In this document: positions 38,883 to 64,000 of the stretch, piece after piece
Numbering within the stretch: the first letter of the stretch is position 1
Layout: each line of letters begins with the position of its first letter
DNA from: Duganella zoogloeoides
Lineage (GTDB): Bacteria > Pseudomonadota > Gammaproteobacteria > Burkholderiales > Burkholderiaceae_D
DNA length: 64,000 nucleotides
Assembly (NCBI RefSeq): GCF_034479515.1
Contig: NZ_CP140152.1
Location: forward strand, 744,001 to 808,000
Reading direction: 5' to 3'
Translations under genes and position numbers: made by a program
The notes under the pieces: model-generated
What the model was told of the DNA's origin: nothing
The model's database searches: none
What the model saw: the letters and a program-made list of their open reading frames with translations, nothing else

Positions 38883-39144
38883 GGGAGCTCCGTTGGGAAA
38901 ACGCGTGAGCATACCGGGGGAATGTGACGGCTTTGTTACCGGTGGAGCGGGGTAACTGCCGTGTTACATCAAAATAATGTCGTAGCGTTTTTTGATGGTC
39001 TACTGCAATCTATTGGCGTCCAAAATCGATGCTAACCATTTGATTTTTATAGGTTTATTGTCTAGTGTAGTACATTGACGTCCCGTGCAGTCGCAACTAT
39101 TATGTGTAGCTACGTGTGTAGCTAATGACATAAAAGGTGCATCG
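38883..39144. other. Chromosome/island junction region with direct repeats
   Basis: This 262-bp gene-free stretch is where base composition shifts from the GC-rich chromosome to the AT-richer island, at about 38,940-39,000. Just before the integrase start are two copies of TGTGTAGCTA (39103-39112 and 39115-39124), spaced 12 bp apart and possibly a recombinase-arm or regulator site. No tRNA gene is seen, so the usual tRNA attachment site is absent here; the other end of the element is outside the window, so att sites cannot be paired. Confidence 0.45.
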
Positions 39145-45327: not shown

Positions 45328-45522
45328 CGTTGTATCAAGCAGGGGGCTAGTATGCCCTCGAATGTCTCCTTTCGTGTGGCAGCTATTCGGTCATATATAT
45401 TTTTGCCGAGATGAAAAATCTCTTATTATGTAGGCCTCAAGTACAAAATCCAATGAATGGGGGGCTGGCACGGTTTTCGTACAATAACAGGCGGGAATGC
45501 CACGAAAGCCGACCACGTGTGG

Positions 45523-48500
45523 ATGCAAAATATTAAATCGCTGAACTTTGAGCCTTTGCGGACCGAGTATCCAGAGCTTGCCAATATGGGAGGCTATGCG
45601 GAGCATTATGCGCACACGGACCCAGAGAGTGCGCTGGTCAAGCTCCGCAGTTTTGCTGAGCGGCTAGTTGATCGCCTCTATATCAAGTTGAAGCTCGAAC
45701 GAGTGGCGCAGTCCAGCTTCGTGGACCTATTGCACAACGCCAATTTTCAGACTATTGCTCAGCCTCTGGTGCTCGACAAGTTGCATTTGTTACGGCGTCT
45801 AGGCAATCGTGGCGCCCACGGGGAAGGCGTCGAGGCCTCGGATGCGGTTCGTTGCGTACAAGAAGCTTGGCAACTCGCCCGCTGGCTGCATGTGACATTC
45901 CTCGGCGGCAAAGTCGAGGACTTCGCGATATTTAAGCAGCCTCCGGCTGAAGGCATCAATAGCAAGGCAGAGTTTAAACGCAAGGCCAAAGCTTTAGCTG
46001 AGGAGAATAGCCTCAAGGAGGTGCGCCTTAAAATTGCGCTACAGGAACTCGCCGAACTGAGGGCTGCCGACCGGGCGTCAACGCCCGCTGCGTCGGCTTT
46101 TACGCCTTCATCGGCCCAAGCTTTGGCACAGGCTGTCCAGTCCTCGGCGGCAACCGCTAATCAGCTTCGTTTTACAGAAGACAATACGCGTAAGTGGTTG
46201 ATCGACCGCGACCTGCGCATGGCAGGGTGGGATGTACCCAGAGACACCGCCAGCAATCATTCAGTTGGCCAAGAAGTCGAGGTACTGCATCAACCCACCA
46301 CGACGGGCAAAGGTTACTGCGATTATGTTTTGTGGGATGATAATGGCCAACCACTAGCTGTTGTCGAGGCAAAGAAGACATTGGTCGATGCTCGCGCTGG
46401 ACAGGAGCAGGCCAAGCAGTACGCCGACGCGTTGGAGAAACAACACGGCCAGCGGCCTATTATTTTCTTCACCAATGGGCATGATATCTGGGTCTGGGAC
46501 GATGTTGCCGGCTATCCTCCGCGCACGGTTTATGGTTTCTATTCCAAAGACACGCTGCAGTACCGCGTCGCCTTCCAGCGGCGCGAGAAGCTCGATTTGT
46601 TGAAGGACGTCAGGCCCGACGCCAACATCGCTGGCTACCTGCACCAGACTGAAAGCATCACCCGTGTCGCCGAGCGATTCACGCAACGCCACCGCCGAGC
46701 CCTGGTTGTGCAAGCTACGGGCACTGGTAAGACGCGCGTTGCCATCTCCCTGGCCAAGCTGCTGATCGATGCGCGCTGGGTAAAGCGCGTACTTTTTCTT
46801 TGTGATCGCAAGGAACTGCGCAAGCAGGCCAAAAACGCCTTCAATGACTTCGTTCGTGAGCCGATCTACGTCATCGGCCAGGCCAACGATGTGGGCAAGA
46901 TGAATGCACGCATCTACATCGGCATCTACCAAGGGCTGATCAATGACTACGAGTCCTTCGACGTCGGCTTTTTCGACCTTATCATTGCCGATGAGTCGCA
47001 TCGTTCGATCTACAACCTCTACGGGGACCTCTTCAAATATTTTGACGCCCTCCAGGTCGGACTGACCGCCACGCCGGTGGAGATGGTCAGCCGCAGTACC
47101 TGCCAGCTCTTTGGGTGCGACTACAAGCTTCCCACTGCTAACTACCCGCTGGACCAGGCCATCGCCGATCGAAAGCTGGTGCCTTTCCGGGTGGTCGCTC
47201 ACACAACTAAGTTCCTGCGTGATGGAATCAAGGCAGCGCACCTGACGAATGAGCAGATTGCGCAATTGGAAGATCAAGGCATCGATCCCAATACCCTGGA
47301 CTTTGACGCCAAGGAGATTGATCACGCCGTCTTCAACAAAGACACCAATCGCGTCATCCTTCGCAATCTGATGGATGCCGGCATTCGCGATGTTGATGGC
47401 CAGCTTCCCGGCAAGACCATCGTCTTCGCGCGCAATATTGACCATGCTCGCCTGTTGGCCAAGCTCTTTGATGAAATGTACCCGCAATTCGCCGGCAGGT
47501 TCTGCCGCGTGATTCATTCCAAAGAGCCGCGCGCTGAAGAGCTGATCGACCAATTCAAGGAGCCCAACGGCGAGCTGCGCATTGCCGTCTCGGTGGACAT
47601 GTTGGACACCGGCATCGATGTACCCGAGGTGGTCAACCTTGTCTTCGCCAAGCCGGTCAAGAGCAAGGTGAAGTTCTGGCAGATGATCGGCCGCGGCACG
47701 CGTCTATGCAAAGATCTTTTCGGTCATGGCGTAGACAAAAGCGAGTTCCTGATCTTCGACCACTGGGATAATTTCGCCTTCCACGACCTGAATGCCGAAG
47801 AGGTCGAACCCACGGTTCCAAAGCCACTAACGCAGCGTCGCTACGAGGCCCGCATCGAGCTCGCGGGCCTGGCGCTGGCGCGCTCCGATATCCCGGCCTT
47901 TGATGTTCTAGCGCTGCAGATCCAGCACGACGCTGTCGCGCTGCCTGATGGCAGCATCGCTGTTCGCGAAAACTGGCAAGCCGTGAGTCAAGCGCGCGAC
48001 CACAAACTGGTACATCAGTTCGCGCCCATTACCCGCCAACTGCTGACTGACACCATTGCGCCGTTGATGAGTGCGTTGGATGTGCGCGGTCAGGGCGATG
48101 CACTACGCTGGGACCTGCTGCTTTCTAGGGCCGAAGCCGCCGCCATCGCAGACCCTGACCAGACCAGTGCTCACCGAGAAGCTATCATGGAATGGGTCGG
48201 CCGCCTGCCCCCGCACCTCAACCCAGTGCGTGCCAAGGCCAAAGAGCTGCAAGTCCTGCGCACCGATGCCTTCTGGCGAGCCCCCAGTTTCGCCCAGCTT
48301 GATCATATGCGCGCCGCTTTGCGCGACATCATGGAATTAGCCGATCGCCCGGCGTTACCTGCACCCATGCCTAAACCCCATTTGGACATCCGCGAGGATG
48401 AAGCCGAATACCAGATTCATGTACGCCCGAGCAAGATTAAATCAGTCGATTTCAGCATCTACCGTAAAGCCGTACAGTTTGCTCTAGAGCCGCTGTTCGA

Positions 48501-48942
48501 AACCGACCCGGTCTTGCTCAAGTTAAGACGTGGCGAGCGCATAACGTCTGATGAACTAGACAAGCTCAACAGTCTGCTGCACACCAGCAACCCCGATGTC
48601 GATCTTTCCATCCTGCGTGAGTTTTACCCCGACACCTCCATACAACTGACGCAAATCCTGCGCGGCATCGTTGGCCTGGATCACGCGGCCGTGGATGTGC
48701 ACTTCTCGACCTTCGCGCAAGCTCATGCACTCAACAGCCAGCAGTTGCGCTTCCTCGCTCTGCTGAAGGACCACATCCGCCAGTTTGGCGCCATTACAGT
48801 TGGGCAATTGTTCGATGCACCCTTCAATACCGTCCACGCTGAAGGCTTGGGTGGCGTTTTCCCTAACCCCCTGCAGCTTGATGAAGTGGTGCGCCTAGTA
48901 CGTGCCTTCGGAGAGCCGTTGCAGCACCCAGCTGCAGAGTAA
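45523..48942 (+). CDS. hsdR: Type I restriction enzyme R subunit
   Basis: A 1139-residue motor and nuclease subunit. The N-terminal DUF4145-like region (residues 20-150) is followed by the restriction nuclease core with the D...ExK motif ([20 protein letters not shown]). The SF2 helicase has Walker A ATGTGKTR and a DESH box ([11 protein letters not shown]), then motif VI near [15 protein letters not shown]. The C-terminus fits the EcoEI_R_C type. It cleaves unmodified DNA far from the site after ATP-driven translocation, in complex with HsdM and HsdS. The start could be 45457 or 45523; neither has a good ribosome-binding site. The catalytic residues look intact. Confidence 0.92.
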
Positions 48943-48971
48943 AACTACAGTAAACAGGAAAAAGCACGCAT

Positions 48972-50513
48972 ATGATCACTGGCGCATTAAGAAGCCGCAT
49001 CGACAGCCTCTGGACCGATTTCTGGACCGGGGGCATCACCAATCCGCTCACCGTCATCGAGCAGATCACCTTCCTGATGTATAGCCGCTTGCTGGACATG
49101 CAAGAGCGCACTCAAGAGAAGCGCGACGCCGTTACCGGCAAACGCGAAGCCAGTCTGTTCGGCGATGTGGACAAAGACTGCCGCTGGGAAACTTGGCGCC
49201 ACTATAACGGCCCCGAAATGCTGCCCCATGTGCGTGACCATGTCTTTCCGCATTTCCGCCGCCTTGCCGAGCGTAGCAGTGGTGAAGGTAGCCACTTCGC
49301 TGCCTTCATGAAAGACGCGCAGCTGATGATTCAAAAGGAATCGCTGCTGGTGAAGGCAGTCAACGCTGTGCATGAACTACCGCTAGAAAAAGGTGACACC
49401 AAAGGTGACCTCTACGAATACCTGCTCAGCAAGCTCACTACCGCCGGCATCAACGGCCAGTTCCGCACGCCCCGTCACATCATCCGAATGATCGTCGAGC
49501 TGATGCAGCCTCGGCCCACCGATCGCATCTGCGACCCGTCCTGCGGCACCGCCGGCTTCTTAATCGAGTCCTATGACTACCTCTTGCGCCACCACAGCAG
49601 TGCAGCCGGCACGCATAAGGAAGTTATAGACGGTGAAGAACACATTAGCTACAGCGGCGACCTGCTCGGTGAGCACCGCGCACATGTAGACACTGATATG
49701 TTTCACGCCTACGACTTCGACGCAACAATGCTGCGCATCGCCACCATGAACTTGGTAATGCATGGCGTGAAGCAGCCCGATGTGCATTATCAGGACACGC
49801 TTAGCCAGAGCTTTGAAGAGCGCCACCCCAGGGGCTCTAAGAATGCTTTCGATCTCATTCTCGCTAACCCACCGTTCAAGGGCAGCTTGGACGAGCAAGA
49901 CGTCGCCCCCGACATCCTGCGCACCGTCAAGACCAAGAAAACTGAGCTGCTTTTTATCGGCCTGATCCTGCGTATGCTCAAAGTAGGCGGCCGCAGCGCT
50001 ACCATCGTGCCAGACGGCGTGCTCTTTGGCTCTAGCAAGGCTCATGTGCAGTTGCGTCAGCATTTGATCGAGAACAATCAGCTCGAAGCCGTGATCTCGT
50101 TGCCCTCGGGCGTGTTTAAGCCCTATGCGGGTGTATCCACCGCCATCATCCTCTTTGCCAAGGGCGGCAAGACGGAGAACGTGTTCTTCTACGACGTGCA
50201 GTCGGATGGCTTTACGCTGGATGACAAGCGGACCAAGATTGGCGACGGCAACGGCGACAGGCTGGATGTGCGGACCAAGTACTTGCAATGGTGCGAAGGT
50301 CAGGGCGATTTCAGTGATCGCAAGGCAAAGGCGTTTGAAGTTTCGGCGGATACCATTCGGGCGCAGGGCTATGATCTATCTATTAACCGGTACAAGCAGC
50401 GGCCTCATACCGAACAAGAACATGCAACTCCCCAGGATATCTTACTTGCGCTGCAGAAACTCGAGGTATCCATTCAAACTGAGCTCGATAGCCTCCAGGA
50501 GTTGTTAGGATGA
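48972..50513 (+). CDS. hsdM: Type I DNA methyltransferase M subunit
   Basis: A 513-residue N6-adenine methyltransferase subunit. The HsdM N-terminal helical domain (residues 1-130) is followed by an AdoMet-binding motif, [11 protein letters not shown], and the catalytic motif NPPF in [11 protein letters not shown]. It methylates the recognition sequence in the M2S1 complex. It follows hsdR by 29 bp and overlaps hsdS by ATGA. The enzyme itself looks intact, but its specificity subunit is broken by an insertion element. Confidence 0.95.
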
Positions 50514-50970
50514 TGTCAGCCCAAAGCAAGCTGGGCGACTATGTTCTTCCAATTAAGAATGTCAATCCAGTTACCTTGTTTGGCGACTCGGACTTCACAT
50601 ATGTGGACATTGCTTCGATCGACAGAGAACTGCGGGCTATAACTAGCCCTCAGACAGTTCCAGCTATTGAAGCTCCGAGCCGAGCAAAGCAAGTAACGGC
50701 AGAGAATGATGTCCTCATTTCGACTGTTCGGCCAAACCTCAATACAGTTGCCATGGTTCCGAAAGAACATGTTGGCGCGATCGCATCTACAGGCTTTTGC
50801 TTGCTGCGCCCCGTGCCAGGCAAGCTAGACGCACGTTTCCTCTTTCATTGGATTTCTTCCGAAACGACTGTCAGCCAACTAGTTGCACTTGCTACAGGTG
50901 CTACTTATCCCGCAGTTTCAGAAAAGATAATCAAGTCGCTTCCGTTTGAACCGCCTTCTTTTTTTGAGCA

Positions 50971-50979
50971 GCGACGTAT
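50971..50979. repeat. Target site duplication, left copy
   Basis: GCGACGTAT directly before the left end of the IS. The same 9 bp recur at 52372-52380. Confidence 0.9.
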
Positions 50980-52371
50980 GATGGTGCCCCACGACGTGGT
51001 GTATGAAGACTTCGCCAGAGATGGCGTTTAGGAAGGCCGCGAGAAGGTGGTCATTGTGATTCTTGAGGTAATGTTGGGTTTACGAAGACCTTAACAAAAC
51101 CACTTTGAGGAACCACAATGACCGACACCACTATCGCATTATCTGAGCTTGCCGAAAAGGGGGCAGATGCAGATTTCATCCGCCAGACGCTGCAGCACGC
51201 TCTGCAGCGACTCATGGAAATGGACGTCGAGGCGCTTTGCCAGGCAGCTTACGGCGAGCGCAGCGACGAACGTATCAACAGCCGCAACGGTTATCGGGAC
51301 CGCGGCTACGAAACCCGGGCCGGCAAAGTCGACTTAAAGATTCCAAAGCTCCGTACAGGCAGCTATTTCCCCGGATTTCTCGAGCCGCGCAGGACGGCCG
51401 AGAAGGCTCTCACGGCAGTGATCCAGGAAGCCTATATTCAGGGAATCTCGACCCGCTCGGTCGATGACCTGGTCAAAGCCATGGGCATGACCGGGGTCTC
51501 GAAAAGTCAGGTATCACGGCTATGCGAGGAGATCGATGAGCGCGTGCAGACCTTCTTGAATCGACCGATCGAAGGCGATTGGCCTTATCTCTGGATCGAC
51601 GCCACCTATGTGAAATCACGCCAGGCCGGCCGTGTGGTCTCGGTGGCCGTGATAATCGCTGTAGCAGTCAATACCGATGGCGTGCGCGAAATTCTCGGAG
51701 TAGCGACCGGCCCTTCGGAAGCGGAGCCGTTCTGGACCGACTTCCTGCGCGGTCTGACCCGCCGTGGTCTGCGTGGGGTGAAACTGGTGATCTCCGATGC
51801 GCATGAAGGCCTCAAAGCGGCAGCGAGCAAAGTGCTCAAAACGAGCTGGCAGCGCTGCCGGGTCCATTTCATCCGTAACGCGCTGGCCCATGCCGGTAAA
51901 GGTCAGCGGCAAGCCGTGCTCGCCATGATCAATACCATCTTCGTGCAGGACACTGCGGAGGCGGCCAGCGTGCAATGGCGCAGCGTCGCCGATCAGCTAC
52001 GGCCAAAGTTCCCCAGGCTCGCTGCCATGATGGACGATGCTGAACATGAAGTGCTGACATTTATGACGTTCCCAAAAGCGCATCGGACGCAGATCCACAG
52101 TACCAATCCGCTTGAGCGGCTCAATGCCGAGGTCAAACGAAGGACCAACGTCATCGGCATTTTTCCCAACGATGGCGCCATCATCCGCCTAGTAGGCGCC
52201 ATGATGCTCGAGCAAAACGACGAGTGGTCATTACAGCGCCGTTACATGCAGCTTGAAGGATTGCAGTCCTTGAGCGACAATCAGCCTGCACGGCTATCCG
52301 CTGTGATTAACTGATCGGGAACCCAGCCCCTCGAGAATTACTTCTCATACACCACTTCTGGGGACACCATC
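50980..52371 (+). mobile_element. IS256-family insertion sequence in hsdS
   Basis: A 1392-bp insertion sequence. The terminal inverted repeats are 27 bp (50980-51006 and 52345-52371), matching at 23 of 27 positions; both begin GATGGTG and end GTGGTGTATGA. They are bordered by a 9-bp target duplication (50971-50979 and 52372-52380). One transposase gene is carried. The intact ends, duplication and open frame point to a recent insertion of a still functional element. The IS name was not identified. Confidence 0.93.
51118..52314 (+). CDS. IS256-family (mutator-type) transposase
   Basis: A 398-residue DDE transposase. The N-terminal region includes [17 protein letters not shown]. The catalytic core has the first Asp in [12 protein letters not shown], the second in [11 protein letters not shown] and the Glu in [16 protein letters not shown], matching the mutator/IS256 pattern, including the helical insertion with the C/D(2)H-like region [10 protein letters not shown]. 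The length is typical (about 400). An AGGAACC stretch precedes the ATG. The protein appears intact, so it can probably move the element. Confidence 0.95.
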
Positions 52372-52380
52372 GCGACGTAT
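52372..52380. repeat. Target site duplication, right copy
   Basis: GCGACGTAT directly after the right end of the IS, identical to 50971-50979. Confidence 0.9.
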
Positions 52381-53111
52381 TGCGGCCATCTTAGACAAGG
52401 CCGACAATTTGCGACGTAAACGGCAAGAATCTATCCGTCTCGCCGACGATTTCCTTCGGGCTGTTTTCATCGACATGTTTGGTGATCCAGTCACGAATCC
52501 CAAAGGGTGGCAGGTGCAACAATTAGCTGACCTCGGCTCTTTAGACCGAGGAGTTTCAAAACACCGGCCGAGGAATGACCCGTCATTGTTGGGCGGCAGC
52601 CATCCGCTTATTCAAACAGGTGAAGTGGCCAATTGTGATGGCTATATCCGAAGCTATACCAGCACCTACTCTGACAAAGGATTGCTTCAGAGTAAATTGT
52701 GGCCTGCTGGAACCCTGTGCATCACCATCGCTGCAAACATTGCTAAGACGGGAATTCTGCTCTTCCCTGCATGCTTCCCAGATAGCATTGTCGGCTTTGC
52801 CGCACCAACACATGCCACTGTTGAGTACGTCCGATTCTGGTTGTCATTTCTCCAAAAGACCTTGGAGGCTAATGCTCCCGAATCGGCACAGAAGAATATC
52901 AATCTTGCGATCCTGCGCAACCTTCGAGTTCCCGTCCCGCCGATTGACTTGGTCCGCAGATTTGCCGCTATCGTTTCGGCGACCGAGTCCATTCGGATTG
53001 CGCAACGGAAGTCAATTCAAGATAGCCTGGCTCTGTCGGCATCACTTCAGCATGAATTGCTCGCGTAGCTAGACATTATGTTCACATTCCATTAACCGAT
53101 AAATCCCTTCT

Positions 53112-54752
53112 ATGACTTCACTTATAAAGTCCATCTCGCTCAAGAACTTCAAAGGTTTCTCTGACGAAGTCCGCATCGAGTTGCGCCCACTCACCTTACT
53201 GTTCGGTGCCAACAGTGCAGGTAAGAGCAGTGTGTTGCAGGCCCTTCATTACGTGCGAGAGATCCTGGAACGGCAGAACATCAATGCCGATCGTACGCTT
53301 CAGGGCGGCGAAGCGATAGACCTTGGCGGATTCCAAAACCTTGTTAACGGTCGTGACTCGCAGAAGCAGATCGAGATTGCCGTCGCAATGGAACTTGGCA
53401 CGAATTCCATTCCTGACCTGGTGCCTGATGCTTTCGAAGATTGGCAAACTAATGACGAAGACGTATGGTGGATGTACCAGACTCTCCAGAATATCCGTAG
53501 TGCAGTGAAGACCGTTGCCATCCGTCTTCGGGTCGGATGGAATGCGCAGCGTGAATTGCCTGTGGTGCAGGGCTACGAGATTGATGCAAACGGCGAGTGG
53601 TGTCTCAAGATTACAGCGAGCGCTGACGGACGTGATGCGCAGATGCGTATCAACCATGCAAATCCTATATTCATGGTGGATGGTCCGGACGGAGATCAAC
53701 TTCTATCTTTGCTTAACGACTTCGTAAACCCTGAGGACTTGGGACAGCAAGACAGCGGCGGCTCTGAGCCGAAAGATACAAAGGGTTCTCCAGGCAAGGT
53801 TTCGGTCCTCCCGTCCGTATTCGATATGGTGAGCGAGGCAGGTATGGAGCGGCCGGGGGACGGTTTACGAGCCTGGCTCACTGGGTTCCGCGGCGCCCTG
53901 CCGAGGCTGGATCAATTGCTGTACATCCCAGCCCCTGGCGCGAGGGGGGCGCATAATGTCTACATGGTACGAGAGTTCACGGCGTTCCTTTCCTGGCTAA
54001 CAGTGGGCCCAGCCCTCCTGTTGCGCGACCAATTGCGCCAAATGCGCTACATCGGCCCAATGCGTCGCATTCCGCCGCGCGGCTTCGAGGTGTCGCTCAC
54101 GAAGAGTGATTCGGCATGGTCCGACGGGATGGCAGGCTGGGAGACGTTGACGACCTGCAGCAAGGATTTGGTGGAACGCGTGAGCGATTGGATGCAGTCC
54201 TACGATAAGCTCGGCACGGGTTACGCGGTCGAACGCAAGACGTATCAAGAATTTGATCCCAGTCACCTTGTGCCTCAGCCTATCGGACCGATCCGTAAAC
54301 GTGCACAGTTAGTGAATGATGCAGGCCTCGTGCTACACCCACAGGACGTAGGTGTTGGTATCTCTCAGGTCCTTCCCGTGGTTGTGGCCGCTCAGGACGG
54401 CTCAGCTAGCGTGGTGTGTATTGAGCAGCCGGAATTGCACATTCACCCGGCCGTTCAGGTCGGTCTGGGGGACCTATTCATCGACGGCGCTGTGAACCAA
54501 GGGCTGTCGTTTCTAATCGAGACGCACAGCGAGCATCTGATTCTGCGCCTACTCCGCCGCATCCGCGAAGGAGTTGAAGCTGGAGGCAAGGTTATTGATC
54601 AGCCTCTATCGCCAGCCATGATAGGTGTCTACTACCTAAGCAAGCGGAACGGGGCCGTGAAAATCGACGAAATTCCAGTAACCACGGACGGCGATTTCGC
54701 CAAGCCTTGGCCTCAAGGATTCTTCGACGAACGTGGCGCGGAGCTCTTTTGA
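53112..54752 (+). CDS. SMC/OLD-type AAA ATPase (DUF3696-like), defence candidate
   Basis: A 546-residue ATPase of the AAA_15/AAA_21 group. The Walker A motif GANSAGKSS is near residues 32-40. A long insertion occupies about 80-400, and a C-terminal ABC-type signature is seen as VGISQVLPVVVAA. Walker B is CIEQPELHIHP, followed by an H-loop-like ETHSEHLILRLLRRI. A DUF3696-like end (PLSPAMIGVYYLSK) is likely. It has no recognisable nuclease domain of its own. It starts 43 bp after hsdS and overlaps the next gene by 1 bp (TGATG). ATPases of this type sense phage events in several defence systems; the exact system is not certain here. Confidence 0.8.
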   Translation: MTSLIKSISLKNFKGFSDEVRIELRPLTLLFGANSAGKSSVLQALHYVREILERQNINADRTLQGGEAIDLGGFQNLVNGRDSQKQIEIAVAMELGTNSIPDLVPDAFEDWQTNDEDVWWMYQTLQNIRSAVKTVAIRLRVGWNAQRELPVVQGYEIDANGEWCLKITASADGRDAQMRINHANPIFMVDGPDGDQLLSLLNDFVNPEDLGQQDSGGSEPKDTKGSPGKVSVLPSVFDMVSEAGMERPGDGLRAWLTGFRGALPRLDQLLYIPAPGARGAHNVYMVREFTAFLSWLTVGPALLLRDQLRQMRYIGPMRRIPPRGFEVSLTKSDSAWSDGMAGWETLTTCSKDLVERVSDWMQSYDKLGTGYAVERKTYQEFDPSHLVPQPIGPIRKRAQLVNDAGLVLHPQDVGVGISQVLPVVVAAQDGSASVVCIEQPELHIHPAVQVGLGDLFIDGAVNQGLSFLIETHSEHLILRLLRRIREGVEAGGKVIDQPLSPAMIGVYYLSKRNGAVKIDEIPVTTDGDFAKPWPQGFFDERGAELF

Positions 54753-55612
54753 TGTTCAAGGAAATCGCTATAGACCCGGCTGCGGTCGCTGCTTCTTACC
54801 TTCAGTTTAACCACATTATCGATCGGTTTGGCGTTCCAGAAGGACGACTGATCGCTGCGTTCCCAAGCAAGTGGAAGCGCCTCGTTTATGAAGCTGCGAG
54901 CGCTCAATTGAAAGGACACTTGGATCTCAAACGGATTGAAGAACGGCTCCGTATTCTGCCGGCAACTGCCTTCCTAGCCCGAGAACGACCAGGGCAAGGA
55001 TGTGCAGAGGATTGGGTAAGGGCTGCAATTGATGAACATCGTCGTCTGCCATTCGAAGCAGTTATCTCCGCTGCAGCGGTAGGTGAGGCGGGATTTCTGC
55101 AACCTGATGACGTTTCGACTGAACATCCGAGTTTTGTGACAAACCGACAGTGGCACGTAAAACGGGACGCCGTTTTGATGGCGAACTGTTGTGGGCCAGT
55201 TTTGTCCAGTTCGCTCCACGTCAAGCTCATCGATCCGCACTTCGACGCTCGCGCACCGCGCTTTAAGCGCCCTTTTTTAGAATTCATACGGCGGGCGCGG
55301 CCAGGCACGACCATCGACATTTTCCGCGGTGATCACATGGATCGAGTCTACTTCGTGACAGGCATCGAGCGGGTACTCAATGAATGGAAACCTTCGGACA
55401 TTGTTATACGCCTATTCCTGCGGCCACAGGGTTCGATGCACAACCGCTTCATTATGAGCAGCGCAGGAGGTGTTTCGTTTCATATTGGCCTGGACGATGA
55501 CGCCACCGGCGAACGGCCTGAAGATATCGTGACGATCCTGCAGGCGGACGTCTGGTCACGTGAATGGAACGCATACTCAGGTAACGACTTTGTAAAGCAG
55601 TTGAATCTCTAG
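54752..55612 (+). CDS. PLD-like protein, partner of the ATPase
   Basis: A 286-residue soluble protein of uncertain family. The N-terminal half is helical. The C-terminal half contains SLHVKLIDPHFD (about 154-165) and MHNRFIMSSAGG followed by SFHIGLDDD (about 229-250). These resemble phospholipase-D-type motifs in which H-x-K is varied to H-x-R (HNRF) with downstream G-L-D. A nuclease role is therefore possible, but the fold is not proven. Translation is coupled to the ATPase gene by TGATG, and the GHKL gene follows 21 bp later, so the three form one unit. Confidence 0.55.
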   Translation: MFKEIAIDPAAVAASYLQFNHIIDRFGVPEGRLIAAFPSKWKRLVYEAASAQLKGHLDLKRIEERLRILPATAFLARERPGQGCAEDWVRAAIDEHRRLPFEAVISAAAVGEAGFLQPDDVSTEHPSFVTNRQWHVKRDAVLMANCCGPVLSSSLHVKLIDPHFDARAPRFKRPFLEFIRRARPGTTIDIFRGDHMDRVYFVTGIERVLNEWKPSDIVIRLFLRPQGSMHNRFIMSSAGGVSFHIGLDDDATGERPEDIVTILQADVWSREWNAYSGNDFVKQLNL

Positions 55613-55633
55613 ATAAAGTGGGGAGTTGAAGGA

Positions 55634-57388
55634 ATGGGAGCAAAGACTGCACGTTTCCAAGTCGATTCTCGGTTAGCTCGCTTGCTGAGCCAAGAATACC
55701 CGTCTACTGAAAAGGCGCTCAAGGAGTTAGTCGACAACGCGTGGGATGCGGACGCCGAGAACGTCCACATCTCGCTTCCAGCACCGATGACTGATGCGCC
55801 CATTGTCATCTCAGACGACGGCTCCGGCATGACACGGGCAGAGCTTGAATCGCACTACTTGGCTATCGCGAGGGACCGGCGCGACCATCGTGGTGAACGA
55901 ACAGCTGGTAAGCAACGGTTGGTCAAGGGCCGAAAGGGCATCGGTAAGTTTGCCGGGCTGATGGCTGCCGCCGAGATGACGCTCGAGACCCGAGCGCGAG
56001 GAATGCTCAGTCGCTTTACGCTGCGTATGAAGGATCTTGCTGGTGTCGAGGATATTGAGCACCTGCCGATCCAAGTCGACACCGAGCTTTGCGACCCTGA
56101 ATCGCACGGCACTACTATCACCTTGCACTCACTCCATGGTGAATTAGCGTTCCCAGACACTGCGAGAATGCGGCAGGTTTTGATCTTCGAATATGGACGC
56201 GCAATGGAGTTTGCGGTCTACGTCGATAAGAAGTTGCTGGGTGTCGACGATGTTGTCGGCACTTTCGCCAAGCAGACGCTGGCCGTCCCCGGCGTCGGCC
56301 CCGTTGAGCTCAGATTTGCAATTGCCGAAGAGCGGTCGGCACAACGGCAGGCTGGAATCGTCTTGCGCGTGGATGGCAAAGTCGTGGGTAAGCCATCATT
56401 CTTCGGGCTCGATGAGCGCGAGGACTTTCCGCAAAAGTTGAAGACCAAGCTATACGGCGAAATCGAAGCCGACGGCCTGCGTGACCATGTAACCGCAGGC
56501 TGGGATAGCGTGATCGAGAACAGCAGCCTCTTGTTGGCTATCACCGAGCAAGTCCAGCCCATATTAATCGCGGCTTTCAAAGAGCGATACAGCCGAGAAA
56601 TTCAATTAGCACAAGCGCGTCTCAGTAGATCCATCAAAGACCGGCTTTCTGCCATGCCCGAGCATCGGCGCGAGTTCGCAGATAAAGCAGTGCGGCGTGT
56701 ACTAGAGCGTTTTTACGGCGACGAACCCAGCAAGCTGGAGCAATACGTTCACGTTTTGCTCGACGCGATTGAGCACGCCGAGTACGGTGCGGTTTTGTCC
56801 CACATCCATGACGCATCTCAAAAAGATGTGGTGGCTATCTCGGCGGCGCTGGACGAGTTTGGTATGGCCGACATGGCCATGCTGGTCAGTCAGGCCAAAG
56901 CGCGCATGCAGTTCCTCGACGAGCTTGAAGCGCTCGCAAGGAATTCAGAAACGCGGGAGGTCGAGATGCACAAAGCCATCGAGCATAACCTGTGGATTTT
57001 GGGGCAGACTCTCACTTTCTTCCGCTCGAACCAGACGCTGAGGCGCACGGTGGAGGAGGCGCTGGGCCGCAAGTATGACGGCGCCAAGGCTTCAGAGCGC
57101 CCCGACTTGTTGCTGAACGAGGATCTAAATGGAACGTGTCTACTGATAGAGTTCAAGCGCCCATCGCATACTTTGAACCATGGTGACTATATCCAGGCCA
57201 TCAGCTATCGACATGAGCTGTCTAAGCACATGACCAAGCCCATTCGGGTGCTGCTGATTGGAGGACGAAGGTCCTTGGACTTTCCGCACGGACAGCGTGA
57301 AGCTGAGGTTGAAGCATTGACTTTTTTCGATGTCATTGCGTCGGCACGGCGAGCCATCGATTGGCAACTTTCGGTCAGCCAATTTTGA
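55634..57388 (+). CDS. GHKL (Hsp90/MORC-type) ATPase with C-terminal nuclease-like motif
   Basis: A 584-residue protein. The GHKL ATP-binding fold is at the N-terminus: the N-box ELVDNAWDAD at about 31-40, DDGSGM at about 61-66 and GIGKF at about 102-106. A long helical middle (residues 300-470) follows. The C-terminal 95 residues carry RPDLLLNEDL and LLIEFKRP, that is Asp491, Glu506 and Lys508, fitting a D...ExK nuclease site. It is the last gene of the plus-strand module, with GGGAG upstream of the ATG. Such MORC-like ATPase-nuclease fusions occur in defence loci. Whether the nuclease is active is unknown. Confidence 0.78.
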   Translation: MGAKTARFQVDSRLARLLSQEYPSTEKALKELVDNAWDADAENVHISLPAPMTDAPIVISDDGSGMTRAELESHYLAIARDRRDHRGERTAGKQRLVKGRKGIGKFAGLMAAAEMTLETRARGMLSRFTLRMKDLAGVEDIEHLPIQVDTELCDPESHGTTITLHSLHGELAFPDTARMRQVLIFEYGRAMEFAVYVDKKLLGVDDVVGTFAKQTLAVPGVGPVELRFAIAEERSAQRQAGIVLRVDGKVVGKPSFFGLDEREDFPQKLKTKLYGEIEADGLRDHVTAGWDSVIENSSLLLAITEQVQPILIAAFKERYSREIQLAQARLSRSIKDRLSAMPEHRREFADKAVRRVLERFYGDEPSKLEQYVHVLLDAIEHAEYGAVLSHIHDASQKDVVAISAALDEFGMADMAMLVSQAKARMQFLDELEALARNSETREVEMHKAIEHNLWILGQTLTFFRSNQTLRRTVEEALGRKYDGAKASERPDLLLNEDLNGTCLLIEFKRPSHTLNHGDYIQAISYRHELSKHMTKPIRVLLIGGRRSLDFPHGQREAEVEALTFFDVIASARRAIDWQLSVSQF

Positions 57389-57672: not shown

Positions 57673-58602
57673 CTAGCTTTTCTTGAGTGGCAGAATAGCG
57701 CGGAGACGCCTGACGAAACCGAGAGTGTCATTTTGAATCGCTTCTCTGACATATAATTCGAGCGTCGGTATGGACCGTCTAAGGCCATTTTTTCTGAATT
57801 CATATTTAGGATCATCGCTGGTAGGAAAGAAAAGATTTTCTATTTGCGGATCAATCGAGATCACTCTATCTACCTTAGGCAGGTCTTTGAGCTCATCGTC
57901 TTGGTCTAGGTTGCCGTCAGTATCTAGTATTAGGATGCGTTTGCAATCTGGCAGCTTTGGCAGCGTGCTTGCTAAATGGATCGCATTGAGCTTACCTCCT
58001 GCCGTTACTACTATCCAGTTCTCGACGTCTAGCTCTCGCATGAATGCACCGATTATGTCAGCGTCTGTCGCCCCTTCAACATAGATCTCGACATTATGAT
58101 GACTCGCTTCTTGCTCACTAATGGAATCTTGCGTTCTCAGAGGGGCGTAAATTAGCCCATACAAAGAAGCAAACATGAGTTTGTTGCGAAGGACCACTTT
58201 CCAGCCGACTAGCTCTGCCTGCTCGACATCTGCAGCGTCACACAGAATGACGTTCAATTCCTTACCGAGAGAAAGTGCATCACTGCATTCCTCCGAATAG
58301 CCTGACCAGGATATGAAAAAACCGCAGGTTCCGCTGAACTTGCCATCTACCTTACCGCGAAAACCATAGACCTCGGAAACAGGTAATGGTTTTGCATGCC
58401 ACTTTGCCTCAACCAAATACCAGCGCCCATCAAAGTAAATTCCCCCGTCGATTTGTTCGCCCGGCTTTTTGAATGGACGTTTAGTCTGCAGGTCCTCTGC
58501 CTCAAAAGCATCGTAGAGATACCTCTCAAAGTCGTAACCGCGCTGTCGCTTTTGCTCTGCTGTGAGATGTGTTGCAGGATCTTTTAGTTCGTTAAGTGTC
58601 AT
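57673..58602 (-). CDS. Mrr-like restriction nuclease fused to a TOPRIM domain
   Basis: A 309-residue protein with two catalytic-looking halves. The N-terminal domain has QIDGGIYF and YLVEAKW, so Asp52, Glu66 and Lys68 fit the D...ExK site of Mrr-type endonucleases. The C-terminal domain (about 170-250) starts VEIYVEGATDADII (Glu176-Gly177) and has ILILDTDGN (Asp227 and Asp229), the E...DxD signature of TOPRIM domains as in OLD nucleases. It is the last of four minus-strand genes following an OLD-type ATPase, a UvrD-like helicase and a Cys/His-rich protein. The combination is unusual; a DNA-cleaving role is inferred. Confidence 0.72.
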   Translation of the reverse strand: MTLNELKDPATHLTAEQKRQRGYDFERYLYDAFEAEDLQTKRPFKKPGEQIDGGIYFDGRWYLVEAKWHAKPLPVSEVYGFRGKVDGKFSGTCGFFISWSGYSEECSDALSLGKELNVILCDAADVEQAELVGWKVVLRNKLMFASLYGLIYAPLRTQDSISEQEASHHNVEIYVEGATDADIIGAFMRELDVENWIVVTAGGKLNAIHLASTLPKLPDCKRILILDTDGNLDQDDELKDLPKVDRVISIDPQIENLFFPTSDDPKYEFRKNGLRRSIPTLELYVREAIQNDTLGFVRRLRAILPLKKS

Positions 58603-58653
58603 ATAGGTGTATTAGGACTGAAGTGGATAACAGGCGCTGTAGCAGAAGCGTGA

Positions 58654-59787
58654 TCACTCAACCGGCATAGGGGGTGCACCGAGCTTGGCCCGCAGTTGCT
58701 GCTCAATCGCTACTCGTTCCGCTTTAAGATCGACGTACTCCGCAACTTGGACGCCGAATTCTTGGATCGCTTTCAAGGCTTGCCAAGTACGAAAATCATG
58801 GAATGGGTTAAGCCCCATTACGTTTCCAAGCTCTTGATTGGAAGAGCCTGCAGCACCCACAATTTTCATAAAGTCCGCGCGGGCAAAATCTTGATTCCAA
58901 TCGCGGACGTACATCAGAAGTGCAGCCAGCGCAAGAACGCTCGAAACATTGATGACCTTGTTTGACGTCGTTAACTTTAGGGGTTTATAGTTTATCGCGA
59001 TGAATCGGGCCAGTTCGCAAGTCTTTTCATACTCCTCCTCAAGCATTGATGGATCAAAAGCGGACCGGCCCTGAAAGCGGCGAGCAAGAGTGCCCATGCG
59101 ACTGTACTCAAGAAAGAAAGGATTGGGTTTCTTGTGAAAGGCTTCCGAAAATGCCCTGTATTCGGGATGCCTCAAAAGCTGTTCTCTAGCTACAGCAGCC
59201 CGCCAGCTGAATTTAGGACTCGCAACTATCCCAAGAGTCAGCTCGACTTCTTTACCAGGTTTAGAGTAAAACTTTTCCCGATAAAGAGAATGCATCCACT
59301 TGGGAAAGCGCGGGTCGAGCGTAACGAGAAACATCGACTGAACCTTCTTGTTGAAGAACCACTCTCTCATGTCTCGAATCGACTTGTGGCTGAATAGCGC
59401 CAATTCGATACCCGTGCCAACGAGCTCTCGCACTGCCTTTGTAATTGGCGAGTTCGAATCCGAAAATGCAACCAGATTCTCGGGCACAGTATTGGCCTTT
59501 TCTGTACTGCCAAAATCGCAATGATCCCGATGTTTAGGGTTGTTGAAGCGGAAGCAGGGTTGACGCAAGGGATTCTTGCTAGCGGTTGAATATGCCGCCT
59601 TAACCAGTTCAGCACCCGTTACGAAGCAACATGGGCATTGGAGGTCCTGCCGTATAAATGCGCGCCATGTCTCTGGAATGGCCTCCGCAGCCGAAACACA
59701 TTCGCCGAACAGAGTTGAGAGGCGCTTCAGAACCTGTTCAACGTCTTCTTCTTTTTCCGACGATATTGAATACGCAGTTAATGGCAT
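58654..59787 (-). CDS. Cys/His-rich protein of the OLD-UvrD operon
   Basis: A 377-residue soluble protein. Near the N-terminus a cluster of metal ligands is seen: Cys51, Cys53, Cys54 (CPCCFVTG), then Cys78, His86, His89 and Cys90 (KHRDHCDF). This looks like a zinc-binding module. The rest is alpha/beta and helical, with no motif I recognise. It lies 24 bp downstream of the helicase gene and 51 bp upstream of the Mrr-TOPRIM gene, in the same direction, so it is likely cotranscribed. Function unknown; a DNA-end or substrate-recognition partner is a guess. Confidence 0.7.
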   Translation of the reverse strand: MPLTAYSISSEKEEDVEQVLKRLSTLFGECVSAAEAIPETWRAFIRQDLQCPCCFVTGAELVKAAYSTASKNPLRQPCFRFNNPKHRDHCDFGSTEKANTVPENLVAFSDSNSPITKAVRELVGTGIELALFSHKSIRDMREWFFNKKVQSMFLVTLDPRFPKWMHSLYREKFYSKPGKEVELTLGIVASPKFSWRAAVAREQLLRHPEYRAFSEAFHKKPNPFFLEYSRMGTLARRFQGRSAFDPSMLEEEYEKTCELARFIAINYKPLKLTTSNKVINVSSVLALAALLMYVRDWNQDFARADFMKIVGAAGSSNQELGNVMGLNPFHDFRTWQALKAIQEFGVQVAEYVDLKAERVAIEQQLRAKLGAPPMPVE

Positions 59788-59811
59788 GATTTTCCCTGTG
59801 GCAAAAGAAAG

Positions 59812-61746
59812 TTAGCTCCACCTAGAAGTTCCAGAAGATTCACTTAAAGACAGAGTCGCTTCAAGAAAGGCGTCGTCTACAATACTTTCTGGTGCAAAAA
59901 GTTCAGAGCGCTCGACGCAAGCCTTCGCTACCGCGATATTGTGGACGAACATAACAACAGCGAGGTCGCGTGTGGCACGTGAGCAGCAGACATAAAAGAG
60001 GCGTCTAGTGCGGTCAATTACGTTGTCCAGACCAGCCGCAATGTTTTCATCATCTGTATCTGACAGAGGCGCTATGCCGAAGTATTTTTCGTAGGAGAAC
60101 AGCCGTTGACCTTGGCCTTCCGCATCATCGATTATGACTAGCACCCGCTCGAACTCTGCCCCCTTCACGCCTTGCTGGGTGGCATATGGCGAAAGATCTT
60201 CCAGGTAGTGATGGTAGGCGCCCAATTCCCCGATACGACAGTTTAGAAATGCCGTTACTGCTGGGACCTCAGGGTCATCATCGGCAGCGAGGGTCGCAGG
60301 ATCAGCCTCCAAATATTTGGTCCATGATTCGTCGAGCAGCATTAACCCATTACGCGAAGCAAAGAGGAGCACATCTAGGAATGTCACATCACCCGACAGT
60401 ACGAGGCGGGCAATTTCCTCTGTGGAGGTTTGCAGTGCCCTGAAAATATCGGGAGCGTTGCCACCCGCCAGTCCAGCCGAACTCAACTGGTGGCATTCAG
60501 CACGCAGTAAGCTCATCACCTCGAAGCCCTGATTATTCCTTACCGCGTTTGCCAAAGGTAGCAAGTAGGCTAGGAAAGGCTTTAGTGGCCATGAAGTGCC
60601 GTCCTTAAGTCCTTCCTTGATGCTGGAGGGGGCTCTGTCGTTTAACGCTGCGTACAAGTTGGGAAAGCCGAGTCGAGTTGCGGCCATGCGATGCACGACC
60701 ACCAGTGCTCGGACGTCTGCTGCGCGATCTCCGCTCTCCCAACGCTCGTCATGGTTGGTCAGTCGCATCCATTTCCGAACCTTTGCAATCTTCGCTGAGC
60801 GGTCCTCGTCGACAGCAAGTAGGAAAATTCTCGCCGAACCTTCTAATGGAACCTGAACTCCATCGACGGACATCATCCGACCACGAGTCTGCACCAGTCC
60901 ATCACCTAATTGGCGCACTGCGTTCACGACGCCAAGCACGCGCTGCGGGCATCTGAAGTTCTCCGGTTTCGTAATCCTTCGCCAATCATCGGGCGCATCA
61001 ATCACGCCGGCACCATCCGCGTATATTTTCTGCATCGGGTCGCCAAAAAATCCTAGCGAGAATTCGACCGAGGTGGTCTCGGCTATGCCGCGCAAAGCGG
61101 CGACGATTTCCGGCCGGGTATCTTGACTCTCGTCGACGAACAGCACGGGGTAGCGACTTGCGATAATGTCGCGTAGCAGCTGGCTTTGGTCGATTAGCTT
61201 AACTGCTGCGGCAATGACGTCAGAGTGACCAAGAACACCACGTCCGAAGTCGCTGCCCGCACCATACTTGAAGTGTGTTTGGTCTTCTATAGTCTGAAGA
61301 TGGCTCTGATAGCGGGCGATCTCTGCGAGTAGTTGAACGCGCGTGGCCGCACGAGTCCTAGGCTTGTCGTGATGTTCTTGTGCTTCGGCGATTTTTTCAT
61401 GGATGCGTGCTATTACCCAGATTTTCAAGTCGCTTTGAAAAGGTCGCACTACCGACCACAAGAAACTGTGAATCGTCGATACGTGAAATAGCGGATCGTT
61501 CCCTACATCGCCCCAAATTTCATTGACTGCGACTTCCGTATAGGTGATACAGGCGATCCGCTGGCCGTGCGTCTTGAGTTCTTTTCTTCGCGTTTGTCCT
61601 AAATGGTCGAGTGCCTTCACAAGAGAGGTAGTCTTTCCTGAACCAGCACCAGCAACCATCACGAAGCTATGTGGGGGACGCTCGTCCAGACAGGCGCGCA
61701 GATCCAGATCTGCCTGCGTATCAGGCTGTCCGATACGCCGAGTCAT
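59812..61746 (-). CDS. UvrD-like superfamily 1 helicase, partner of OLD nuclease (Gabija-like)
   Basis: A 644-residue SF1A helicase. Walker A GAGSGKTT lies at about 33-40, motif Ia near ACITYTEVAVNE, motif II is LFVDESQDT, and motif III near GFFGDPMQKIYAD. The C-terminal motifs include KGAEFERVLVI and LFYVCCSRATRDL. It overlaps the upstream OLD-type gene by 4 bp (ATGA), so the two are coupled, as GajA/GajB are in Gabija and in other class 2 OLD pairs. It is somewhat longer than a typical GajB. DNA unwinding or end-sensing is inferred from the family. Confidence 0.85.
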   Translation of the reverse strand: MTRRIGQPDTQADLDLRACLDERPPHSFVMVAGAGSGKTTSLVKALDHLGQTRRKELKTHGQRIACITYTEVAVNEIWGDVGNDPLFHVSTIHSFLWSVVRPFQSDLKIWVIARIHEKIAEAQEHHDKPRTRAATRVQLLAEIARYQSHLQTIEDQTHFKYGAGSDFGRGVLGHSDVIAAAVKLIDQSQLLRDIIASRYPVLFVDESQDTRPEIVAALRGIAETTSVEFSLGFFGDPMQKIYADGAGVIDAPDDWRRITKPENFRCPQRVLGVVNAVRQLGDGLVQTRGRMMSVDGVQVPLEGSARIFLLAVDEDRSAKIAKVRKWMRLTNHDERWESGDRAADVRALVVVHRMAATRLGFPNLYAALNDRAPSSIKEGLKDGTSWPLKPFLAYLLPLANAVRNNQGFEVMSLLRAECHQLSSAGLAGGNAPDIFRALQTSTEEIARLVLSGDVTFLDVLLFASRNGLMLLDESWTKYLEADPATLAADDDPEVPAVTAFLNCRIGELGAYHHYLEDLSPYATQQGVKGAEFERVLVIIDDAEGQGQRLFSYEKYFGIAPLSDTDDENIAAGLDNVIDRTRRLFYVCCSRATRDLAVVMFVHNIAVAKACVERSELFAPESIVDDAFLEATLSLSESSGTSRWS

Positions 61747-64000
61747 GCTGCGGCATCCACATCGCCGGCGGCGACCTCTAAAGCGATAGGCGGTGAGGGT
61801 GCTACTTGTGCCTCAAGCCATACCAGACCCTCAGAGATGTAGCTCGGCACTTTCCATGCAGCGGGATCGTGGGCCAGCAACGCTAGCGCAAAGTCAGTTT
61901 TATGGAAATTCGCATTCTTGACCTTACGATACAGGCTCTCTGCGACTCCCTCGATGTTCAGCCGGTTGCACCCCTTGACGCGCAAACCAAGGTCTTTGCG
62001 GTCGGCATCCTGGCACCACGCCAAGTTTTCCAATGCAAAGGCTTCCTCTAAAGTTCTGCCGGTCCTGTTCTCTGTTGTCTCTTGCCAAGTCACCTCGATC
62101 GGTGTTTGGTAAGAGACGCGGACGAGTGCGTCACCGCCTTCAGCCCTCGGTTGGGTACGCTGATCGATAGTCGCAGCGAGCAAGTTGGCAATAGTGTGGC
62201 ACCCTGGAAGCCATTTGATCAGCGTTTGATTCGACGTGAGAGCTCCTACTTCATGGACCATGCAAGCCTTGCGCCCACGTCGAACCGACTCGGCCTCTTC
62301 GGCTTCTTCTGTTGCGTTGGGAGCCGCGTTGGCGTAATCGTCATCGGCTGGCACCTCGTGTGGTAGCTGAGGAGCATCCGCACTTGGAGGAAACACGCTA
62401 TCGATATCGGTCACAATCAGGGAAGTTAGGCCTAGAAAGTCGATAAGGCCTTTGAATCTATGGCCGAATGCGCCGCCGATCTCAAGAATGCTAAGGTATG
62501 TCGACTGCAGTTGCGGCGCAGCTTTTGCGATCATCTGAGGCATCAGAATCCGCTCAACATTTCCTTCCACCAGAATGGCCGCATCGGCAAAGAATATGTC
62601 GCAATGCGTTAGCCTTAGGTAGCGCTCAAGGAAGTCTCTGGTGCGGTCAGCAGGATCGCCCGGATCGTTGGCTATCTCGTAAAAGGCCGCCATACTGAGG
62701 ACTTGAGACCGCTGCACGCCAGCATCAGCAGCGCGGCGGAAATACCGAATGGGCCGAAAGCCCCGCTCGAAGAGCACGTGCGGTGAATGTGTCGAAACAA
62801 CCAACTGACTCGTGCAGTACGGGGCATCTTCCTTTGGCACTGCGAGTATATCCAGTACCTTCCGAATGAAGACCTGCTGTAGCTGAGCGTGCAGGTGTGC
62901 CTCCGGCTCCTCAATAAAGATCAGATGCAGAGGCGGACGGTTTTCCTCGATGTCCAACCATCTAGCATGAACGTCAAGCAGTTCGACGACCATATAGATC
63001 AGATTCTTGAAGCCAAGGCCGTTGTACCGATCCGGCAAGGTGGCTGTATTAACAGCTCTACCCGATGCCCCCACAGCGTAGTGGACACGAGCACCTTCAT
63101 GACTGCTGAGGATCGTTGCGGGATTCAGCGCGGTCTTGATAAGAAGTCGAGGATTGTTGACGCCTGGATAGCCAAGGTGGGCAAGTCGTTCCAGCGTGGG
63201 TCCAAAGACTCGCTCCAAGTGATCGTTGAGCAACGTCTCGGACTGATACAGCGCACGTTGGGCTTCATGGTCCTCACCGCTCTTTTCAAGGTTTCGCTCG
63301 TAGAAACGACTCAAGCAACGGGATAGGTCTTCGGATCTGGCCCCTCCATTGGAATCGGACAGATGACGTTGGGCATGCAGACAGTCTACCTTCACTAGGC
63401 TGGCCAAGATGTCTTTACCACTGCGCCCTTTGTCTGGCATCAAGCGCAGAGGAGTGTAGCCTTCAGCGGAATTGAGATTGTCGTCGAACTGCGCACGGTC
63501 AAGAACGTAATAGCGTAACTCGAAATCTCGCCAAAGGCGATCGCCTGTAGCATCTGAAAGGAAGTCGCAAAGCGTGCGAGGTTGCGGGTCGTACCCAACT
63601 TCGTTCCCAGCAGGTGCCGCAGCAGGTTCTTGAGCTTGTCCTACAGGTTGCGCATTAGCGAGCCTGGCGCTCGCTCGCGTCTCTTGGAAGCTGGCTCTTA
63701 AAGCTGGCGCATCTAATGCGACGAGTTCCACTCGAACTCCAACTTGGCTGCCGTGCCACGCTAAGTTCGGTAACAGGTCAACAACCCGGTGAAGATCGGC
63801 TGCTTGGACGCCAAACCAAATATCGATGGAAATGGTTGGCAATTCGACGCCGTCGACTCCCTCACCAAATGCATTAATGGCATCCCAGCACTCGGAGCTG
63901 AAGTCATGAAGTGAGAATCGACTCCGAGAGGCGGCAGTGAACAATTGCAGGGCATGTGCCGCTGAAGTCTTGCCGCTATTGTTGGCTCCCACGAAGATGG
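61743..64000 (-). CDS. OLD-family ATPase/TOPRIM nuclease (5' end outside window)
   Basis: At least 752 residues are visible; the frame is open to the end of the window, so the start lies beyond it. The visible N-terminus has the P-loop IFVGANNSGKTSAAHAL. Further on come LIFIEEPEAHLHAQLQ (Walker B region) and VVSTHSPHVLF (H-loop). The C-terminal half has a TOPRIM-like domain with AILVEGNVERILMP (Glu-Gly) and LIVTDIDSV (D-x-D). This is the order of OLD endonucleases. The protein is coupled to a UvrD-like helicase, which defines class 2 OLD/Gabija-like pairs. It probably cuts DNA under phage attack. A GTG at 63992 is not the true start, because the P-loop strand lies upstream of it. Confidence 0.88.
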   Translation of the reverse strand, partial: IFVGANNSGKTSAAHALQLFTAASRSRFSLHDFSSECWDAINAFGEGVDGVELPTISIDIWFGVQAADLHRVVDLLPNLAWHGSQVGVRVELVALDAPALRASFQETRASARLANAQPVGQAQEPAAAPAGNEVGYDPQPRTLCDFLSDATGDRLWRDFELRYYVLDRAQFDDNLNSAEGYTPLRLMPDKGRSGKDILASLVKVDCLHAQRHLSDSNGGARSEDLSRCLSRFYERNLEKSGEDHEAQRALYQSETLLNDHLERVFGPTLERLAHLGYPGVNNPRLLIKTALNPATILSSHEGARVHYAVGASGRAVNTATLPDRYNGLGFKNLIYMVVELLDVHARWLDIEENRPPLHLIFIEEPEAHLHAQLQQVFIRKVLDILAVPKEDAPYCTSQLVVSTHSPHVLFERGFRPIRYFRRAADAGVQRSQVLSMAAFYEIANDPGDPADRTRDFLERYLRLTHCDIFFADAAILVEGNVERILMPQMIAKAAPQLQSTYLSILEIGGAFGHRFKGLIDFLGLTSLIVTDIDSVFPPSADAPQLPHEVPADDDYANAAPNATEEAEEAESVRRGRKACMVHEVGALTSNQTLIKWLPGCHTIANLLAATIDQRTQPRAEGGDALVRVSYQTPIEVTWQETTENRTGRTLEEAFALENLAWCQDADRKDLGLRVKGCNRLNIEGVAESLYRKVKNANFHKTDFALALLAHDPAAWKVPSYISEGLVWLEAQVAPSPPIALEVAAGDVDAAA

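Follow-up and report, generated by a model that had tools for sequence, protein, structure and literature searches.

Does a Gabija defence pair that is closely followed by two further genes form one larger system with them, or have separate genes come to stand behind it? We address this question for a 64,000-nucleotide stretch of Duganella zoogloeoides DNA (contig NZ_CP140152.1, positions 744,001 to 808,000; the window hereafter), at the right end of which the open reading frame (ORF) listing shows four minus-strand ORFs packed in one run, from position 57673 to past the window end. With a probability of roughly 0.75, we read the locus as a two-gene Gabija system, situated in a defence island and followed by two genes of independent distribution, all probably on the same transcript. 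Rather than a new machine of four parts, it seems to be a stack of separate defence genes, and a four-gene Gabija system is not supported. The run comprises the following features, in the order of transcription:

61743..64000, with its start ATG at window coordinate 64076 (L002:8077), minus strand: GajA, a class 2 OLD nuclease of 777 aa (PADLOC, Pfam, motifs)
59812..61746, minus strand: GajB, a UvrD/Rep-like helicase of 644 aa (PADLOC, Pfam, motifs, phmmer)
59788-59811, minus strand: gap of 24 bp between GajB and G3, with an AGGGA stretch that resembles a ribosome site by eye
58654..59787, minus strand: gene 3 (G3), 377 aa, uncharacterised family phrog_12525 (profile match, Cys/His conservation, AlphaFold2 model)
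58603-58653, minus strand: gap of 51 bp between G3 and G4
57673..58602, minus strand: gene 4 (G4), 309 aa, Mrr-type PD-(D/E)XK nuclease with an OLD-like TOPRIM (Pfam, AlphaFold2 model, structural alignment, motifs)

The window end cuts GajA, leaving 76 bp including the start codon outside, and the length of 777 aa is that of the whole ORF. The junction between GajA and GajB reads GCATGACTC, with an ATGA overlap at 61743-61746. Gabija is presented in PMC10781630 and PMC10568477 as a GajA-GajB pair of the class 2 OLD type. Nearly full-length matches were obtained to the PADLOC models PDLC00095 for GajA (E 6e-257) and PDLC00143 for GajB (E 6e-236), and Pfam finds AAA_15 (110.9 bits) and OLD-like_TOPRIM (58.1 bits) in the former and UvrD-helicase (60.9 bits) in the latter. 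The motifs are intact in both proteins: GANNSGKT at 30, LIFIEEPE at 385, LVEG at 502 and TDID at 556 in GajA, and GAGSGKT at 33, VDESQD at 204 and VCCSRA at 586 in GajB. GajA combines an ABC ATPase with a TOPRIM domain that carries E and DxD, residues which by their motifs would be equivalent to the reference residues E379, D432 and D434 named for BcGajA in PMC10781630, and the gene adjoining it encodes a UvrD/PcrA/Rep-like helicase. Judged from their sequences, genes 1 and 2 belong to Gabija.

The two genes behind the pair are of other kinds. G3 matches phrog_12525 over residues 1-367 (E 1.5e-60), nearly its full length, while no PADLOC, NCBIfam or Pfam family matched it at E 0.1 and its AlphaFold2 model (pLDDT 88) gave no match at E 0.001 in the fold comparison. 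It has an isoelectric point of 8.8 and carries a zinc-site-like set, C51xxC54...H86xxxC90, all four residues of which are invariant in 71 aligned sequences. G4 (AlphaFold2 model, pLDDT 91) consists of a PD-(D/E)XK nuclease domain at about residues 1-145 and an OLD-like TOPRIM at about 160-306. Mrr_cat, with 30.1 bits (cut-off 21) from residue 21 on, is the sole Pfam family above cut-off; the TOPRIM match to PF24395 lies below cut-off by sequence and is supported by the fold comparison. Structurally, the amino-terminal half aligns to AF1548, FokI, AspBHI and MspJI, and the carboxy-terminal half to TsOLD, BpOLD, PARIS and GajA. The motifs GEQIDGG at 48, EAKWH at 65, VEGATD at 175 and DTDG at 227 are present, and D52, E65, K67, E176, D180, D227 and D229 are invariant in 20 sequences. 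G4 is of the Mrr type by sequence and fold, with the D...ExK arrangement, and its TOPRIM fold has the E and DxD of the OLD type. Mrr-type restriction endonucleases have an N-terminal reading domain, Mrr_N; Pfam detected neither Mrr_N nor a further reading domain in G4, nor an ATPase domain, so that it is not a true OLD protein, and no PADLOC family matched it at E 0.1. What a preliminary description had seen in the locus holds up in these respects: the ORF coordinates confirm a four-gene minus-strand run in which the first two genes overlap by ATGA and the later gaps measure 24 and 51 bp, the first pair with its OLD ATPase plus TOPRIM and UvrD motifs is Gabija, the metal-ligand-rich third gene does possess conserved Cys/His residues of metal-ligand type, and the nuclease and second TOPRIM of the fourth gene are recovered as Mrr_cat by Pfam and as TOPRIM by fold. 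The search against defence models that it proposed for all four proteins succeeded in PADLOC for GajA and GajB and returned no family for G3 and G4.

The same description had placed genes 3 and 4 in one system with the OLD-UvrD pair, and this we could not uphold in view of the separate distribution of the pair, G3 and G4. The co-occurrence that it proposed to check holds in part, since G3 is found recurrently near GajAB in alphaproteobacteria, and fails for the four-gene set, which was seen nowhere else; genes 3 and 4 occurring mostly without the pair, and the pair occurring alone in relatives, were named by it as findings that would speak against one system, and they are largely what the counts below give. 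The clearest evidence for modularity is a GajAB block that matches without G3. In locus L015, GajAB is convergent with G3, with 35 bp between them. Three plasmid loci (L114, L128 and L129) match L015 at 91.6-92.3% DNA identity across both genes of the pair, beginning about where GajA starts and stopping where GajB ends, and do not match its G3; the GajAB copy of L129 is broken. L014 and L017 share two separate blocks with L015, one of GajAB (91%) and one of G3 (83%). Along the run in the window, G+C declines from 0.548 through 0.535 and 0.496 to 0.471, a weak hint that the origins of the genes may be separate.

We drew 38 G3 loci from the genome collection by a two-motif scan and fetched flanks of up to 10 kb; four of the matches cover fewer than 160 residues (L035, L038, L039 and L040), and several loci end at contig ends (e.g. 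L006, 4.9 kb). GajB is present in the fetched flanks of six loci (L014, L015, L017, L018, L022 and L029) and absent from those of the other 32, some of which are cut by contig ends. When the 38 genomes themselves were searched, nine matched GajB at 1e-15, eight of them near full length (E 2.9e-71 or better), leaving 30 of 38 without GajB at that level, and full-length G4 occurred in none, a single genome having a match to the Mrr part. The per-genome searches (samples of the order, the family and the Brucella endophytica family, and the L124 relative) scored few candidates per genome and had the window itself as their only positive control, so that absences there are not proof; neither G3 nor full-length G4 was found by them in the 398 other genomes of the order sample, and of the 294 genomes sampled from the window's family they yielded G3 in its own and in none of the remaining 293. 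A UvrD-type match was obtained in 82 of these 294 genomes, at E 2.5e-58 or better in 13, the window's own included. We inspected 11 of the other 12 family GajB loci (all except G415; L076 covers 1.4 kb downstream): GajA adjoins GajB in 11 of 11, and G3 and G4 accompany it in none. In a sample of 199 genomes from the family to which Brucella endophytica (G695) belongs, six have GajB, which G3 adjoins in two (L018 and L103) and does not adjoin in four (L104-L107; about 440 bp downstream in L107). The GajB loci L108 and L109, from genomes with G3 elsewhere, also lack an adjoining G3. On plasmids the order GajA-GajB-G3 was seen in NC_012853, which stands for at least one such record when 20 of 260 and 40 of 263 G3 records were compared with 30 of 118 and 60 of 104 GajB records, and no G3 was found at seven other plasmid GajB loci (L114-L117 and L128-L130). 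Two of the protein searches rely on shared five-residue words, one of them having scored the 7999 best candidates. The 51-bp gap and common strand of G3 and G4 could also mean that these two make up a separate pair whose place behind GajAB is accidental, a proposal we find scarcely credible, given that the codirectional gene behind G3 in other loci has no significant similarity to G4 and that none of the 38 G3 genomes examined contains a full-length G4.

Phylogenies of both proteins agree with repeated rearrangement. On the GajB tree (33 rows, nine with G3 near; L110, from the genome of L029, is not among them) the label of proximity needs six changes, at least four of them being forced by well-supported branches, and on the G3 tree, built from 41 rows longer than 300 aa (eight with GajAB near; the program warned of long branches), it needs five. 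Rows of both trees were partly picked through G3. The label changes on both trees indicate that G3 and GajAB have met or parted several times.

A number of observations weigh against the independence of the four genes and have to be set against this. Tight packing, a plausible ribosome site before G3 and terminator-free gaps suggest a single transcript, and it is plausible that GajAB, G3 and G4 are carried on one; of three terminator-like sites found, none lies within the 24-bp or the 51-bp gap, and promoter-like sites are at chance level (8 found vs 6.5 +/- 2.6 in shuffles). G3 stands near GajAB in L014, L015, L017, L018, L022, L029, L103 and L089, and codirectionally right behind GajB in L022 and L089. 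Where a genome has both G3 and a near-full-length GajB, the two are linked within 10 kb in six of eight cases, which fits a functional preference of G3 for Gabija and is far above random placement in genomes of several megabases, although for island genes random placement is not the appropriate null. The clustering of the proximity labels also exceeds that of most shuffles (16 of 500 as low on the GajB tree, 5 of 500 on the G3 tree), which is what related near-copies would produce. For G4, our evidence on context comes from outside the neighbourhoods of its 16 closest relatives, and in L086 an Mrr-bearing protein unlike G4 lies beside another GajA/GajB-like pair. The codirectional run in question (L086:5121-10753) consists of a 366-aa gene with a weak PADLOC match to PDC-M05A, a 299-aa unknown, a 305-aa protein with its Mrr domain in the carboxy-terminal half, and short GajA-like (522 aa) and GajB-like (344 aa) genes.

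From such observations one could propose an extended Gabija in which G3 and G4 are recruited by GajAB, the one as an adaptor that binds DNA and the other as a second nuclease, giving two TOPRIM nucleases and a helicase in one system. The packing of the four genes, the repeated position of G3 beside GajAB in separate alphaproteobacterial lineages, the resemblance of the G4 TOPRIM to that of OLD/GajA and the Mrr protein adjoining the Gabija-like pair of L086 would all accord with it. We nevertheless hold it to be improbable, as the four-gene set was seen nowhere else, G3 not being found in the 293 other family and 398 other order genomes sampled, nor full-length G4 in the latter and in the 38 G3 genomes, and as GajAB blocks occur without a neighbouring G3.

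The linkage in six of eight genomes and the three arrangements of G3 and GajAB (codirectional behind GajB, convergent, or with other genes between), which suggest repeated meetings, would also suit G3 as an optional, Gabija-specific modulator, for instance of range or self-protection, with G4 unrelated. All six linked genomes are alphaproteobacteria, however, and L014, L015, L017 and L018 share an integrase family with L016 and L020, where G3 stands without adjoining GajAB, so that a shared island can explain the neighbourhood. Since, moreover, close GajAB copies without G3 exist, 30 of 38 G3 genomes lack a GajB match of E 2.9e-71 or better, and G3 has Zorya, CBASS and DRT genes among its neighbours elsewhere, we regard a dedicated modulator as very doubtful. 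In our reading of a two-gene Gabija with independent genes behind it, the proximity of G3 to GajAB is a recurrent, optional adjacency in alphaproteobacteria, whether as an optional partner or as an island neighbour, and G3 and G4 may still help GajAB against the same invaders.

What G3 keeps as company elsewhere was assessed from its neighbours: 66 proteins, GajAB excluded, match 160 PADLOC models at 1e-10, whereas 66 controls match 5. The neighbours were picked by hand from 119 candidates (ORFs of at least 250 aa no farther than 3 kb from G3), with GajAB, near-duplicates and some others excluded, and the controls are 66 of 104 ORFs taken at random from 16 of 20 stretches elsewhere in the same genome set; the counts are of models, several of which may match one protein, and mad3 is in both sets. 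The 25 neighbour models listed include Zorya ZorA, the CBASS cyclase, E1-E2 and effector, DRT, PDC-S02 and ShosA. This makes G3 look like a gene of defence islands in general, a setting that fits a stand-alone role in defence or competition and would explain its frequent proximity to Gabija. Its homologues also occur on 260 plasmid records and 4 phage records. On the IncX1 plasmids L041, L113 and L151 the homologue lies between the dqlB gene and the hha/H-NS genes and is faced by a NACHT gene (L041, L151) or an Abi-family gene (L113), possibly marking a variable defence slot. In phage SSU5 (L112), the homologue SSU5_107 has small accessory genes around it, and a gene for a DNA methyltransferase lies about 5 kb upstream.

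In the window, G+C is about 0.65 up to roughly 39 kb and mostly 0.50-0.57 beyond that point, and by eye the low-G+C stretch is bounded by an integrase-like gene at 39085 and a ribonuclease-G-like gene at L002:18072 (about 74070); this stretch is probably an integrative island of defence genes, some 35 kb long. On the plus strand, at 53112-57388, a tight run of three genes converges with the Gabija genes. It consists of an AAA_15 ATPase of 546 aa, with NsnB as its best PADLOC match (4e-47), a 301-aa protein that has no family and a GHKL protein (HATPase_c_3, 584 aa) whose carboxy-terminal part weakly resembles SduA_C of Shedu, below the Pfam cut-off; the run may be an unlisted defence operon. 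At 45457-53068 (plus strand) there is what appears by eye to be a type I restriction-modification locus, with a specificity gene seemingly split by an IS256-family transposase gene (51118-52314). The right piece (52409-53068) matches Methylase_S and the PADLOC model Specificity_I, and the left piece (50510-51031) was assigned by eye.

As to how the proteins would act, GajAB most likely works by itself as characterised Gabija does, and would attack linear DNA of invaders where this is not shielded by the repair complex of the host. According to PMC12407980, Gabija acts on linear DNA that RecBCD leaves unprotected. Most likely G4 is a DNA nuclease in its own right that depends on metal and has two active sites, one in an Mrr/MspJI-like PD-(D/E)XK domain and one in an OLD-like TOPRIM. 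Here it would add an independent or GajAB-assisted cut; its relatives elsewhere stand behind other ATPase-type defence genes. For G3, the Cys/His set, the pI of 8.8 and the island and plasmid locations would suggest a basic, zinc-binding, nucleic-acid-binding protein that most likely acts alone in defence or in competition between elements. One may speculate further, though we think it unlikely, that G3 (phrog_12525) represents an unrecognised anti-invader family working by itself, which has a zinc site, lacks any recognised relative in fold, is carried by conjugative plasmids, phage-plasmids and integrative islands and has repeatedly docked onto Gabija, and that in this locus G3 and G4 widen the range of GajAB or strengthen its cut. 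Among the titles and abstract openings listed by searches of openly licensed PMC papers for extra genes of Gabija, phrog_12525 or Mrr-TOPRIM fusions, none describes an accessory operon of Gabija. The locus should not count as evidence for a four-component Gabija; what it does add are two protein types, the G3 family phrog_12525 and the Mrr-TOPRIM G4, that match no PADLOC 2.0.0 model here and live in defence islands (G3 on plasmids too), and are relevant to the way in which defence genes become stacked. If G3 did modulate Gabija, this would bear on how Gabija discriminates self from non-self DNA, which the opening of PMC12407980 calls unknown before proposing an answer based on RecBCD.

Among known proteins, the phage family phrog_12525, whose function is unassigned, also takes in SSU5_107 and a protein of an IncX1 plasmid, but the G3 of the window is chromosomal and directly behind GajB. 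G4 differs from the Mrr/MspJI-type PD-(D/E)XK nucleases in having a TOPRIM fused in place of the reading domain. In L124 a full-length relative of G4 (344 aa) follows, at a distance of 97 bp, a gene that matches Ppl (PDLC02208, 5e-154), and so stands behind an ATPase-type defence gene, whereas the G4 of the window follows GajAB and G3; no Ppl gene was found among the window neighbours run against PADLOC. With characterised Gabija the first two genes share the order GajA then GajB and the combination of ATPase, TOPRIM nuclease and helicase, with motifs intact. They differ from the solved Bacillus cereus proteins in being longer, at 777 aa for GajA and 644 aa for GajB, and in a large sequence distance (phmmer E 1.5e-7 for GajA; 4.8e-10 for GajB, against the solved GajB 8sm3_B), and in the window the pair is trailed by two additional genes.

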